This document shows, piece after piece, positions 5,285-19,171 of a stretch of 20,317 bases of DNA. The notes below the pieces were generated by a model that was given only the letters and a program-made list of their open reading frames with translations, ran no database searches and was not told where the DNA came from. This DNA comes from a virus: IMG/VR virus record IMGVR_UViG_3300030108_002400, positions 1 through 20,317 of that record. One strand, 5' to 3'. The position numbers and the translations under genes are program-made. The stretch's first letter is position 1, and the number at the start of each line of letters is the position of its first letter.

Positions 5285-5470
5285 ATGGACATTGAAAAAT
5301 GGAAGTCAGTATTGGTGCCAATAGAGGTTTACCAAGCGATAAAAGGATTGGCAAAGCATGAAAAAAGGACAATCTCCGGTCAACTGCGGGTTATCTTTGA
5401 AAAGTTTTGCGAATCAGAGAAAATAAAGATAAATGTGAATGGAAATGGGTCCAAATCGTCAAAAGGATGA
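5285..5470 (+). CDS. small ribbon-helix-helix-like (Arc/CopG type) protein
   Basis: This 61-residue protein has the outline of a ribbon-helix-helix DNA-binding protein. A short strand SVLVPIEVY (about 8-16) is followed by helix AIKGLAKHEK (18-27) and, after RTISGQ, helix LRVIFEKFCES (34-44). RHH proteins bind short operators as dimers, so it could act on nearby dyads, but no target is shown. The ribosome-binding site AAGGAG at 5273-5278 is strong. The last 32 bases overlap the methyltransferase gene in another frame, so the two are probably co-translated. The Asn/Ser/Lys-rich C-terminal tail is likely unstructured. The fold call rests on pattern alone. Confidence 0.6.
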   Translation: MDIEKWKSVLVPIEVYQAIKGLAKHEKRTISGQLRVIFEKFCESEKIKINVNGNGSKSSKG

Positions 5471-9596: not shown

Positions 9597-9874
9597 TGAG
9601 TAAATTATTTAAAGTGACAGCAACTATGGATGTCGGTTATCAATTATTTATTAGGGCTGAGAATAAAGAAGAAGCTATGGAACAGGCAGAAAACGTGGAC
9701 AGCGATCATTGGCAAAAGGCTGACGATGGCCATGATTGGACCATGGAACAGGCTTGGGAGGTCGCGGAAGACGAATACGGTGCTGAAGAAGTTTACGAAG
9801 ACCCAGACGAACAATTGGGCAAACAAATTTACTCTGGTGCTTTTATAAATAAAAAAGTTGACACCGAAAAATAA
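9596..9874 (+). CDS. small strongly acidic hypothetical protein
   Basis: This 92-residue protein starts at ATG 9596, joined to the previous stop, with GGGAG six bases upstream; an in-frame GTG at 9590 is less likely. The N-terminal strand-helix pattern LFKVTATMDVGYQLFIRAEN then KEEAMEQAENV recalls the protein at 8568. The C-terminal half is very rich in Asp/Glu (AEDEYGAEEVYEDPDEQLG), giving a highly negative charge, which can occur in DNA-mimic proteins but is not proof of one. The promoter of the candidate short RNA begins inside its last five codons. Confidence 0.65.
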   Translation: MSKLFKVTATMDVGYQLFIRAENKEEAMEQAENVDSDHWQKADDGHDWTMEQAWEVAEDEYGAEEVYEDPDEQLGKQIYSGAFINKKVDTEK

Positions 9875-9887
9875 AAAATGTTATAAT
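9858..9887 (+). promoter_or_regulatory. strong sigma70-type promoter overlapping a gene end
   Basis: Consensus TTGACA (9858-9863) and consensus TATAAT (9882-9887) are separated by 18 bases. The -35 lies inside the last codons of the preceding gene. Transcription would start near 9894 and meet a terminator about 70 bases later. Confidence 0.78.
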
Positions 9888-9893
9888 ATAGGA

Positions 9894-9965
9894 AGATTCT
9901 TTTCTCTGTGTTAACAACACAACAATTGATAACAGAAAAACCCTCGCTACTGGCGGGGGTTTTTT
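9894..9965 (+). ncRNA. candidate short non-coding RNA (about 72 nt)
   Basis: This is inferred from a two-hexamer consensus promoter followed by an intrinsic terminator with no gene between. The 5' half can fold through an imperfect stem (TCTGT near 9905-9909 with ACAGA at 9933-9937), with an A/C-rich loop containing AACAACACAACAA, followed by the terminator hairpin. The unpaired A/C-rich loop is a possible base-pairing or protein-binding region. It is not a tRNA. Target and conservation are unknown. Confidence 0.5.
9937..9965 (+). terminator. rho-independent terminator
   Basis: CCCTCGC (9942-9948) pairs with GCGGGGG (9954-9960, including one G-T pair) around the loop TACTG. The flanking A-tract (9937-9941) and T-tract (9961-9965) extend the stem. 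It ends both the five-gene operon and the candidate short RNA. Confidence 0.88.
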
Positions 9966-10051
9966 GTTACATAAGTATACAGTATACACTATGTTCTAAA
10001 ATTAAAAAAAATTTTTTTATTTTTCAGGAAATGGCGTATACTTATGTAACA
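9965..10051. repeat. perfect 15-bp inverted repeat around an A8T7 tract
   Basis: GTTACATAAGTATAC (9966-9980) is the exact reverse complement of GTATACTTATGTAAC (10036-10050), and the outer T9965/A10051 adds a 16th pair. The left arm is followed by a second GTATAC (9982-9987). The centre holds an uninterrupted A8T7 run (10004-10018). The stretch 9961-10080 has only 23 G or C in 120 bases by hand count. It could be an operator, a replication origin or a packaging site; no gene lies between 9875 and 10215. Confidence 0.85.
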
Positions 10052-10134
10052 TTTTAGTTATCTCATTGTATTTAAATTATTAATCAGGAAAAATTTGTTA
10101 CATATTTGTTTTTCAGTGGTGTAAACGTGTAACA
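9965..10134. repeat. cluster of TGTTACA/TGTAACA sites
   Basis: The heptamer TGTTACA occurs at 9965-9971 and 10096-10102, and its reverse complement TGTAACA at 10045-10051 and 10128-10134, forming two inverted pairs. Another exact copy lies at 10284-10290 inside the small terminase gene, and a 6-of-7 match at 10183-10189. About two or three would be expected by chance in the whole window. The pattern suggests a protein-binding array just upstream of the small terminase gene. Confidence 0.6.
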
Positions 10135-10138
10135 CTTC

Positions 10139-10168
10139 TTGACAGGGTTTTTCTTTTATGAAAGTAAT
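10139..10168 (+). promoter_or_regulatory. possible promoter for the small terminase gene
   Basis: A consensus TTGACA (10139-10144) is followed after 18 bases by AGTAAT (10163-10168), a 4-of-6 match. It lies about 48 bases before the terminase start. The -10 is weak, so activity may need an activator or another element. Confidence 0.35.
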
Positions 10169-10215
10169 ACAAACATAGGCACAGTAACAATTATAGAAGT
10201 TGAGATTATAAAAAT

Positions 10216-10794
10216 ATGGCTAGACCAAGAAAGAACGAAAATACACAATTAACGCGAAAACAAGAGCGTTTTGTCAAAGAATTTGTAACAAATGATGGTT
10301 TTTTGACTAAAAGAGAGTGTGCAATTAAGGCCGGATACTCAAAAAGTAGTGCCCATGTCAAAGCTTACGAACTTACAAATCCAGATTTAAATCCTCATGT
10401 TGTTGCTTTTATGAATAAATATAAAGCAGAGATAGATGAAAAGTATGGTGTTTCTTATGGAAGACATATAAGAGACTTACAAAGGATTCGTGACCAAGCT
10501 TTAGAAGCCGGAGCTTATTCGGCGGCCGTTCAGGCAGAAAAAGCACGAGGATTGGCGCAAGGAAACATTTATGTAAACAAATCGGAAATTAGACATGGTT
10601 CTATTGATTCGATGAGCAGAGAAGAAGTCGAAAAAGAATTAGAAAAAATAAGAGATACTTATGGAACTTCCATCATCAATGTTACCCCAAAAGAAGAAAA
10701 ACCAAAACAGCTCTCCAAAAAACCTAGAAAGTCAATTCTTTCAGACATTAAAGTCAAATCTGAAAAATCTAAAAAGAAAGTTACACTTAACTAG
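10216..10794 (+). CDS. terS: terminase small subunit
   Basis: This 192-residue protein matches the Terminase_2 type of small subunit, which recognises phage DNA and recruits the large subunit for packaging. It has the N-terminal pattern LTRKQERFVKEFVTN (12-26), a helix-turn-helix AIKAGYSKSSAHVKAYEL (36-53), a central helix IRDLQRIRDQALEAGAYSAAVQAEKARG (85-112, for oligomerisation) and a helix REEVEKELEKIRD (135-147). The last 45 residues are Lys-rich and overlap the nuclease gene in another frame. The ribosome-binding site is weak (GAG about 12 bases upstream). It lies about 6 kb from the large subunit gene, whereas the two are usually adjacent, and is preceded by the inverted-repeat cluster, a plausible packaging or autoregulatory site. 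Confidence 0.82.
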   Translation: MARPRKNENTQLTRKQERFVKEFVTNDGFLTKRECAIKAGYSKSSAHVKAYELTNPDLNPHVVAFMNKYKAEIDEKYGVSYGRHIRDLQRIRDQALEAGAYSAAVQAEKARGLAQGNIYVNKSEIRHGSIDSMSREEVEKELEKIRDTYGTSIINVTPKEEKPKQLSKKPRKSILSDIKVKSEKSKKKVTLN

Positions 10795-11122
10795 GGTAGA
10801 GACTTGGGTATCTCCAGGTGTACCAGACTTACTTGTCTGTGATGAAAAGGGATTATTTCATTTTTTAGAATTAAAAGTTACAGGTTCTAATGCTGTCCGA
10901 TTGTCTGCCCATCAAATATCTTGGCTAACTTTACATAAAAAATCCAGTTCTTGGGTTTTAGTACGACAACAAAAATTACGCAGTAAAATATTTTCTGTTT
11001 ATCTGTATCACGCTGAAGATGTGTTAAGTTTAAGCAAGCAAGGTTTAAAAAGTAAGCCAAGGTTACACTTTGAATACAAAGTTGATTGGGTAAAACTTTT
11101 TGACTTGATATGTCCCATATAA
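10661..11122 (+). CDS. VRR-NUC-like PD-(D/E)XK nuclease
   Basis: This protein of up to 153 residues carries the catalytic core of a small VRR-NUC/Holliday-resolvase-like nuclease: PGVPDLLVCDEKG (52-64, Asp56), FLELKV (68-73, Glu70 and Lys72) and a downstream SAHQISWL (82-89, Gln85). These residues form the metal-binding PD-ExK site, and a helix ESQFFQTLKSNLKNL precedes it as in the family. The start is uncertain: ATG 10661 and ATG 10679 are both possible without a good ribosome-binding site. Either start gives an overlap of over 110 bases with the terminase gene in another frame, and the catalytic core lies entirely after the terminase stop. It probably resolves branched DNA before packaging or in replication; this is inferred from the family. 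Confidence 0.75.
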   Translation: MELPSSMLPQKKKNQNSSPKNLESQFFQTLKSNLKNLKRKLHLTRVETWVSPGVPDLLVCDEKGLFHFLELKVTGSNAVRLSAHQISWLTLHKKSSSWVLVRQQKLRSKIFSVYLYHAEDVLSLSKQGLKSKPRLHFEYKVDWVKLFDLICPI

Positions 11123-11165: not shown

Positions 11166-11273
11166 ATGTTTTTATTAGAAAAACTTTATTGTTGGCTATT
11201 TTATGGCACAACTGATCCAGAGGGTCATTTTAAACAAAAAGAACGAAATCGTAGAATAAATAGGAGAAAATAA
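11166..11273 (+). CDS. 35-residue small protein
   Basis: A 35-codon gene opens at ATG 11166 with a strong ribosome-binding site, AAAAAGGAG, and closes with TAA at 11271-11273, sharing its last base with the next start (TAATG). The product has an aromatic/hydrophobic N-terminus (FLLEKLYCWLFYG) and a very basic C-terminus (KQKERNRRINRRK), so it could sit at a membrane or bind nucleic acid. The tight coupling and good initiation site support translation. It is too short for family assignment. Confidence 0.55.
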   Translation: MFLLEKLYCWLFYGTTDPEGHFKQKERNRRINRRK

Positions 11274-11668
11274 TGTTAGTCACAGAGAAAGAATCAGTAT
11301 TTTTAAAAACATTACCAATGTGGGCTATGGGCTTTGCACAAATTAGGCTCTCGAAGACTATGTTGGATAAATCAATAATAGATGCAAATAAATCAGTTAG
11401 AGATTTGGCGTTAAACTTTGGCATTGATTTTGATAAAATGAAAAACGGCGATAAGTATGAAGTGCTTGCACGTTTTGATGATACTAATCAGGAATCGGTT
11501 GTTAGATTTTATAAAACCATTAATCGTGGTGATAGGCGTGTTTCTATTAAAGGAATAAAACAATATGCTAATATTGGTGATCTAATAGCTTTATCAGCTT
11601 GCCTTCCAAAAGATGAAAATAAAGACATCATTATAATTAATGTAACTAGGAGGGCTGATGATGAGTAA
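11273..11668 (+). CDS. hypothetical protein
   Basis: This 131-residue protein is not recognised. AGGAG lies about seven bases before ATG 11273, inside the 35-residue gene. The N-terminal half is helical with IRLSKTMLDKSIIDANKSVRDLA; the C-terminal half has alternating strands (KYEVLARFDD, ESVVRFYKT, IIIINVTRR) and a conserved-looking KGIKQYANIGDLIALS. This mixed fold could be a small enzyme or DNA-binding protein, but there is no diagnostic motif. It shares an operon with three other unknown genes downstream of the terminase-nuclease pair. Confidence 0.65.
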   Translation: MLVTEKESVFLKTLPMWAMGFAQIRLSKTMLDKSIIDANKSVRDLALNFGIDFDKMKNGDKYEVLARFDDTNQESVVRFYKTINRGDRRVSIKGIKQYANIGDLIALSACLPKDENKDIIIINVTRRADDE

Positions 11669-16870: not shown

Positions 16871-18328
16871 ATGGAAGCACAAGAAGTAACCGCAAAACGA
16901 TTAAAGCTTGAATTAAGATTAGAGCAGTTAAAAAAAATTGATTATTCAAAAAATAATTTTTTGTATTTCGTAAAACAAATGTGGCCTGAATTTATTGCAG
17001 GAGCGCATCATAAAATCATAGCAGACAAGCTTGAGGGCATAGCAACGGGTGAATTAAAAAGACTTATTGTCAATATGCCTCCGCGACACACGAAATCTGA
17101 GTTTGCAAGCTATCTCTTTCCAGCGTGGATGATAGGCCGTAAGCCTAAGATGAAAATTATACAGGCAACACATACGACAGAACTTGCAGTAAGTTTTGGG
17201 CGTAAGGTTAAAAATCTTTTGGAACGTGACGACTACAAAGAAATATTTCCTGACGCTAATTTATCTGCTGACAGTAAAGCATCAGGGCGTTGGGATACAA
17301 AAGCTGGTGGTATGTATTACGCCGTGGGCGTTGGATCAAACCTAGCGGGTCGTGGTGGCGATCTTATTGTTATTGATGATCCACACTCGGAACAGACAGC
17401 CATGTCTAATTCTGGTTTTGAAGATGCATGGGAGTGGTACACTGGGGGCCCCCGACAGAGACTACAGCCCGGTGGTGCTATTGTTCTTGTGCAGACAAGA
17501 TGGTCACAGAAAGATATGACAGGACAGTTAATCAAATCTATGGCTAAGGATCCCCTAGCTGATCAGTGGGAAGTCATAGAACTACCAGCCATTATGCCCA
17601 GCGGTTCTGCCTGCTGGCCAGAGTATTGGTCTTTACCAGATCTTGAATCTGTAAAAGCATCAATACCACCGTCCAAATGGAATGCACAGTATCAGCAAAA
17701 CCCTACAGGTGAGGACAACGCTATTATTCCACGCAGCTGGTGGAAACGCTGGAAAAAGAAAAACGTACCTGATCTAAAATATGTTATACAGAGTTACGAT
17801 ACGGCATTCACGAAACGCGAAACATCAGACTATTCTGCCATTACAACTTGGGGTGTATTCTCACCAGAAGAAGGTGGACCACCAGGATTAATACTATTGG
17901 ACAGTAAAAAGGGACGTTGGGACTTTCCGGAACTCAAGGGTATTGCGTTAGAAGAATATGAGTATTGGGACCCCGACACTGTAATCGTGGAAGCAAAAGC
18001 AAGTGGGCTGCCTTTGACACACGAACTACGGAACACGGGTATCCCTGTCGTAAACTTTACGCCTTCTAAAGGTAATGATAAGGTATCGCGTGTACATTCG
18101 GTATCACCTTTGTTTGAAGCCGGTATGGTCTGGGCCCCCGAAGAGACGTTTGCAGACGAGATGATAGAAGAGGTTGCAGCTTTTCCAAATGGAGAGTATG
18201 ATGACCTTGTGGATAGTATGACACAGGCCTTGATGAGATATAGACAAGGCAACTTTGTAAACCTGCCATCGGATGATTGGGGAGATGAAGAAGTGAAGGA
18301 AACAAGAATAAGGGCTTATTATGGATGA
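16871..18328 (+). CDS. terL: terminase large subunit (packaging ATPase and nuclease)
   Basis: This 485-residue motor protein cuts concatemeric DNA and pumps it into the prohead. The ATPase domain has a Walker A variant MPPRHTKSEFAS (69-80), adenine/motif region IIQATHTTELA (96-106), Walker B LIVIDDP (165-171) and a coupling motif VQTRWSQKDMTG (207-218). The RNase H-like nuclease domain has its acidic residues in SYDTAF (Asp310), VEAKASG (Glu374) and DDLVDSM (444-450). Walker A reads RHTKS where many relatives have RHGKS. GGAG five bases before ATG 16871 supports the start. The end overlaps the next gene. Length is normal for the family. Confidence 0.95.
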   Translation: MEAQEVTAKRLKLELRLEQLKKIDYSKNNFLYFVKQMWPEFIAGAHHKIIADKLEGIATGELKRLIVNMPPRHTKSEFASYLFPAWMIGRKPKMKIIQATHTTELAVSFGRKVKNLLERDDYKEIFPDANLSADSKASGRWDTKAGGMYYAVGVGSNLAGRGGDLIVIDDPHSEQTAMSNSGFEDAWEWYTGGPRQRLQPGGAIVLVQTRWSQKDMTGQLIKSMAKDPLADQWEVIELPAIMPSGSACWPEYWSLPDLESVKASIPPSKWNAQYQQNPTGEDNAIIPRSWWKRWKKKNVPDLKYVIQSYDTAFTKRETSDYSAITTWGVFSPEEGGPPGLILLDSKKGRWDFPELKGIALEEYEYWDPDTVIVEAKASGLPLTHELRNTGIPVVNFTPSKGNDKVSRVHSVSPLFEAGMVWAPEETFADEMIEEVAAFPNGEYDDLVDSMTQALMRYRQGNFVNLPSDDWGDEEVKETRIRAYYG

Positions 18329-18880: not shown

Positions 18881-19171
18881 ATGGATGAAGAACAATTATT
18901 AAAAGCAGATGGGTTTGACGAAGCAGTTTTAGGCGTTGGTCGAAGGTGCGGGCAACCTGATCTTTTAGTGTACAATTATCAGAAATGTTGCGAAGTGCTT
19001 GTGAAACGTGATAAGATGACGTATGAAGAAGCAGAAGAGTTTATGGAATATAATGTCGTTGGTGCGTGGGTCGGGGATAAAACACCTATCTTCGTTAATA
19101 CTGACAAAGAAGAGATAACCGAACTTTATGATTTATCAGAGGTAAAATTAAATGGCGAAACCACCAATTAG
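18881..19171 (+). CDS. conserved small phage protein of unknown function
   Basis: This 96-residue protein belongs to a widespread but uncharacterised phage family that I recognise from the pattern KADGFDEAVLGVG (8-20), a central VYNYQKCCEVLVKRDKMTYEEAEEF and EYNVVGAWVGDKTPIFV (about 55-71). It is acidic and soluble with no known motif. It starts three bases after the preceding stop with GGAG upstream and overlaps the portal gene by 20 bases, so it is part of the packaging/head operon. Confidence 0.78.
   Translation: MDEEQLLKADGFDEAVLGVGRRCGQPDLLVYNYQKCCEVLVKRDKMTYEEAEEFMEYNVVGAWVGDKTPIFVNTDKEEITELYDLSEVKLNGETTN

Follow-up and report, generated by a model that had tools for sequence, protein, structure and literature searches.

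What do repeated short words directly before a small terminase gene do, and what reads them? This question is raised by a stretch of 20,317 nucleotides (nt), here called the window, from the uncultivated virus record IMGVR_UViG_3300030108_002400. In this window, copies of the heptamer TGTTACA in both orientations stand upstream of terS, which encodes the small terminase TerS (PF03592; 10216-10794, plus strand). Comparison with related phages indicates that the words belong to a conserved site, shared by many marine phages, in which the word is switched as a cassette while the neighboring terS remains nearly the same. The role of the site and the nature of the factor that would recognize the word are weighed below.

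TGTTACA sites in the window

TGTTACA was observed 9 times on the two strands of the window, against 3.6 to 3.8 expected. Five copies lie at 9965, 10045 (minus strand), 10096, 10128 (minus) and 10284 (minus). The cluster of five copies described in the initial annotation is real, since five copies within 320 nt were found in 0 of 1,000 dinucleotide shuffles of the whole window. Four copies within 164 nt were likewise found in 0/1000 such shuffles, and shuffling of 9965-10290 itself gave five copies in 0/2000. Among 7-mers with at least three different letters, TGTTACA was the only one with five copies in 320 nt in the window. The annotation had also reported a perfect 15-bp inverted repeat around an A8T7 tract, in DNA of about 19% G+C. 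The inverted repeat exists but is 16 bp long (9965-9980 and 10036-10051, with arms 55 nt apart), and a perfect repeat of 15 bp or longer, its arms no more than 120 nt apart, arose in 1 of 300 shuffles. The A8T7 tract is present at 10004-10018, while the G+C content, measured over 9965-10290, was 26.4%.

The left arm of the repeat begins with the inverted word TGTTACA (9965-9971), which is kept in L003-L013. The A8T7 tract and its flanks occupy 9998-10025, and an A-tract recurs at the equivalent place in distant relatives. The right arm, matched by eye to the tandem words of relatives, consists of a degenerate tandem unit, GTATAC, and the perfect word TGTAACA (10045-10051). On the plus strand these are followed by the inverted word TGTTACA at 10096-10102 and then TATTTG, a flank shared by L286 and L289, and by a direct word pair at 10119-10134, in which GTGTAAA is degenerate and TGTAACA (10128-10134) is perfect; both are perfect in L013. 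The fifth copy (10284-10290) is probably not part of the element, because it lies inside terS and three of four close relatives (G001, G002 and G004, but not G003) lack it there. The element proper is the non-coding stretch 9965-10134, directly upstream of terS, with four copies. An Rfam search and a DNA-level search of a phage collection gave no match.

A possible loss of the repeats in close relatives was checked, and both sites and spacing were found to be retained. In L003-L014, the four sites hold their positions, with spacing within one base, except in L013, where additional copies occur and the distances are shifted. Between the window and L013, whose TerS proteins are 83% identical, 28/28 word columns were kept compared with 110/142 other columns (Fisher p = 0.003).

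Architecture and word in the phage group

Relatives were gathered through terS, giving 483 sequences, 429 of them with TerS. Of 174 unique TerS, 163 had at least 300 nt of upstream sequence, and the remaining 11 were left out because this sequence was too short. Many relatives share a common architecture upstream of terS: an A-tract, two or three tandem words 8 to 10 bp apart, inverted copies and one last direct copy. A repeat array immediately upstream of terS, with tandem repeats beside an AT-rich element, is a general feature in much of the group. The word differs by lineage, being GTAAC, GTTAC, GGTAC, GGAAC, GGGAC or GGCAC (GKNAC). Direct and inverted copies inside one cassette share the word, with few exceptions; the mixed cassettes of G046 and G048 have one GGTAC, the remainder being GTTAC. 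An automatic rule was applied to 396 loci that had 300 nt or more of upstream sequence, and it assigned a word to 257 of them. The 139 unlabelled loci include the window's own clade, which has a single clean tandem unit, and distant groups, and in some distant relatives the array was not detected by this rule. The tandem of the window itself is degenerate, so the rule leaves it unlabelled; its word, judged by the perfect copies, is GTAAC.

Many cassettes, those of L129, L298, L302, L136 and L121 among them, also contain a constant dyad, TCTGTAAC...ATACAGA or similar, which is unchanged when the word changes.

Block replacement of the cassette

Cassette identity was compared among 139 distinct cassettes of about 110 nt, using pairs with terS cores at least 94% identical. 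The median identity was 0.98 (0.78 to 1.0) in same-word pairs (n = 82) and 0.60 (0.50 to 0.79) in different-word pairs (n = 13), the pairs not being independent of one another. G061, G062 and G063 are near-identical in the block that follows the cassette and on into terS, but they carry GTAAC, GGTAC and GTTAC, respectively, and the same swap pattern was found in G049/G047 and G044/G043. These alignments show the cassette of about 110 nt to be replaced as a block while terS stays. In some same-word pairs the cassette was more similar than terS (for example, 0.95 and 0.83), which suggests exchange of the cassette between lineages. As sequence facts, the architecture, its conservation and the block replacement are solid.

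The array also moves together with two genes. An open reading frame with a nuclease-like domain (10661-11122, plus strand; phrog_2165, phrog_93) lies directly 3' of terS in the window, and a nuclease homologue was found downstream of terS in 410 of 429 loci. In the few kilobases around terS, no gene families other than terS and the nuclease gene reach 104 of the 105 non-redundant labelled loci. In most of 13 pairs that were aligned, array, terS and nuclease gene form a single block (about -350 to +950), and the sequence on either side is mosaic; the three move as one unit.

Eight whole or near-whole relatives of 39 to 60 kb were scanned for word-rich windows. In all but G035, in which a coding cluster was richer, the window before terS was the richest or tied for richest. 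Fourteen rich windows were checked: seven were non-coding, and all of these were terS arrays, and the other seven lay within open reading frames 102 to 612 codons long. This check covered the top windows. TGTTACA clusters elsewhere in G002 and G013 were read by eye as repetitive coding sequence. The array was shown to be unique among the clusters checked.

Candidates for the reader of the word

The agreement of the word among the copies within each cassette implies that something reads it. TerS was rejected in this role because identical TerS proteins, or ones differing in a single residue, occur with different words. The TerS proteins of L462 (GTAAC) and L464 (GGTAC) differ in 1 of 210 residues, at position 2; those of L302 (GTTAC) and L150 (GGTAC) are identical over a 130-residue core; and L325/L318, L286/L326 and L135/L290 combine different words with identical TerS cores. 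These pairs were drawn from loci whose words had been confirmed, and L291, which has no word label, was excluded. Sequence reading of the variable bases by TerS is not supported, being contradicted by these pairings.

No alignment column separated the third-base classes of the word in TerS (39 genomes), a ribbon-helix-helix (RHH) protein (25), PolA (23), the helicase (19), p262 (18), p192 (18) or TerL (20). In the primase, one gap-rich column does separate them. G043 and G044, which have different words, are 100% identical in the RHH protein, 99.6% in the helicase and 98.2% in the primase. The RHH protein is encoded at 5285-5470 of the window; it is small (RHH_5, below the cutoff) and was matched in 30 of 38 related records. 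It was rejected as the reader, as its strand WKS[VI][LV][VI]P is nearly invariant across word classes and the whole protein is identical in G043 and G044. Column 14 of this protein distinguishes K = T and K = G across 25 genomes, but L101 (GTAAC) breaks the rule.

The nuclease was rejected because near-identical proteins occur with different words. A 131-residue protein encoded at 11273-11668 (gene X) is conserved downstream of terS in some members of the group and has no Pfam match above the cutoff; its pattern may resemble that of the EcoRII-N/B3 DNA-binding fold. No match to it was found in 27 of 27 records, an empty result that by itself carries no weight, and it had no word signature by eye, so it was set aside. 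A methyltransferase was rejected, being found in 6 records only, and the gene directly upstream of the array fails as a candidate because its family 65 accompanies several words. In G033, a stand-alone protein, which we take to resemble the DNA-binding domain IV of DnaA, is encoded about 1.3 to 1.6 kb upstream of terS. This protein is rare in the group and was rejected because it is found at few loci only. Among the 105 non-redundant labelled loci, no gene family within a few kilobases of terS tracked one word so as to explain all. Since the examined proteins and the gene families near terS fail to track the word, we infer that the reader would be either a factor of the host or a phage factor that is unlinked or subtle.

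Possible functions of the element

According to one study (PMC4737164), the TerS of phage SF6 binds DNA by its conformation and puts up with variation in sequence; the region that it recognizes overlaps promoters as well as the beginning of the terS gene. The same study proposes for SF6/SPP1 that a ring of TerS helix-turn-helix motifs picks bendable DNA with A/T runs and works as a switch seated over the promoter and the beginning of the gene. The present element resembles the SF6/SPP1 packaging-initiation (pac) site, as described there, in that repeat-bearing DNA with A/T runs lies in and before the small terminase gene, next to a small terminase with helix-turn-helix motifs. It differs in its words of 5 to 6 bp, which agree throughout each cassette and change between phages as alleles.

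We tentatively favor, at somewhat less than an even chance, a pac-type site that also controls terS within the terS-nuclease unit. The TGTTACA sites would then represent the word GTAAC(A), repeated within a conserved cis-acting site of nucleoprotein assembly. TerS may recognize the shape of the invariant A-tract frame and wrap or bend it, in line with the proposal for SF6/SPP1. The repeated word may be read by a second factor, whose specificity would differ among otherwise near-identical phages; recombination would swap the word cassette of about 110 nt as a block. Shape reading of the SF6/SPP1 kind agrees with the unchanging A-tract frame, with the location of the element and with the finding that TerS is indifferent to the cassette beside it. 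A second reader would be needed because shape sensing does not imply a strict word per cassette. From these features we infer the pac-type role and the shape recognition by TerS, and likewise that a second reader exists and what kind of factor it would be. In the labelled loci the array has the place of a pac site, in or directly before terS. The initial annotation had proposed a packaging site, origin or operator beside terS; the location and kind of site stand, and the sites are conserved, but sequence reading by TerS does not, given the same TerS with different words.

Several observations weigh against a pac-type site. If TerS senses shape alone, word-consistent copies are unnecessary. Contig ends show no pile-up near the array in a table read by eye, and hence no hint of a fixed cut. 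No reader gene was found, although most records are fragments and the gene may lie beyond them. In phage HTVC023P, an unrelated repeated word, CTAGGAAA, occupies the equivalent place before terS. An origin or an operator would, moreover, leave much the same sequence marks.

As a replication origin, the element would offer the words as iterons to an initiator and the A-tract as an unwinding element. Its direct repeats, its AT-rich DNA and its uniqueness among the clusters checked agree with this, and a similar make-up is described in reports on the SPP1 origins oriL and oriR (PMC6316719) and on PLE (PMC8263062), the latter including iteron restructuring and exchange of replicon modules in the PLE-ICP1 conflict. 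Those origins, however, have a known initiator, whereas here the neighbors are terS and the nuclease gene, and no initiator co-varying with the word was found among the shared replication genes examined in the fetched contigs. The near-identity of the RHH protein, helicase and primase in G043/G044 and the lack of a class-separating column in the helicase, PolA and two other replication-module proteins, with one gap-rich column in the primase, make an origin rather doubtful. An operator or promoter for the terS-nuclease operon, at which a transcription regulator of changing specificity, encoded by the phage or its host, would act in the manner of immunity operators, is no less doubtful. The position directly before terS, TATATA boxes 3' of the A-tract in relatives, and TTGAC retained just past the last word in the window's clade speak for it; yet no regulator gene that co-varies with the word was found among the genes compared, the RHH protein being fully identical in G043/G044 and no word-specific family near terS being explanatory. 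Operators or stoperators would be expected at several promoters across the genome, but the non-coding rich windows were terS arrays in 7/7 cases, with no word clusters outside open frames elsewhere among the windows checked. The stoperators of Cluster A mycobacteriophages (PMC6550527) also have lineage-specific recognition words among related phages, but they number up to about 30, are spread genome-wide mainly in one orientation and are read by a phage-encoded repressor, whereas the present array is single, local and of mixed orientation and has no known repressor.

The copies might also match through single-strand pairing in a DNA or RNA structure, which would make a reader unnecessary. Direct and inverted copies are indeed complementary within each cassette, but the pairing often ends at the 5-bp core, with differing flanks (L150 and L178), and the fixed G, A and C of GKNAC are not demanded by pairing alone, so this explanation is very improbable. 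It is possible, though on the unlikely side, that the cassette of identical short words acts as an address. Its alleles would be exchanged between near-identical phages under diversifying selection. The reader would then be an unlinked phage factor or a factor of the host, and the word would decide with which host strain, competing phage or satellite a phage is compatible.

Repeat arrays are known at packaging sites, origins and operators, and their reader normally changes along with the repeats. Here the word switches while the terminase, the nuclease and, in one pair, the replication proteins are practically unchanged. The natural cassettes with different words make this hidden specificity directly testable. 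If the reader is a host factor or the product of a competitor, the cassettes would be a sign that marine phages have a system of compatibility or conflict. No title or opening abstract on a switching repeat cassette before terS was found in the literature search, which is weak evidence of novelty since most subscription journals lay outside it. In papers on HTVC023P and HTVC027P (PMC9599517 and PMC12753301), a term search found nothing on the small terminase, promoter or such repeats.

Neighboring features and named relatives

Just past the last word, TTGACA at 10139-10144 (plus strand) is a candidate -35 box; TTGAC is present in 8/8 aligned sequences, and there is no clear -10 box. Farther downstream, the large terminase gene lies at 16871-18328, and the portal gene starts at 19152.

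Named relatives by protein include the Pelagibacter phages HTVC027P and HTVC023P, phage 023Pt_psg01 and phage DSL-LC04. In HTVC023P, the CTAGGAAA repeats lie immediately before terS (L164:2774-2874), and this phage has been cultured, so it offers a cultivable test case. CAAGC/GCGAG repeats were found about 450 to 800 bp upstream of terS in 023Pt_psg01 (L165:2394-2510) and HTVC027P (L163:2208-2276), and in both phages terS is opposite in strand to the large terminase gene. DSL-LC04 has a 36-nt inverted repeat, 83% complementary (L166:2122-2157 / 2289-2324), upstream of two small genes that precede terS.

At 9858-9966 of the window, a full-consensus promoter (TTGACA-18-TATAAT, with a preceding TG) is followed about 50 nt on by a hairpin resembling an intrinsic terminator. 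The core of the putative short transcript, TTCTTTTCTCTGTG, is invariant in 8 relatives; we take this arrangement to recall a terminated short RNA ahead of late genes, or a small RNA.
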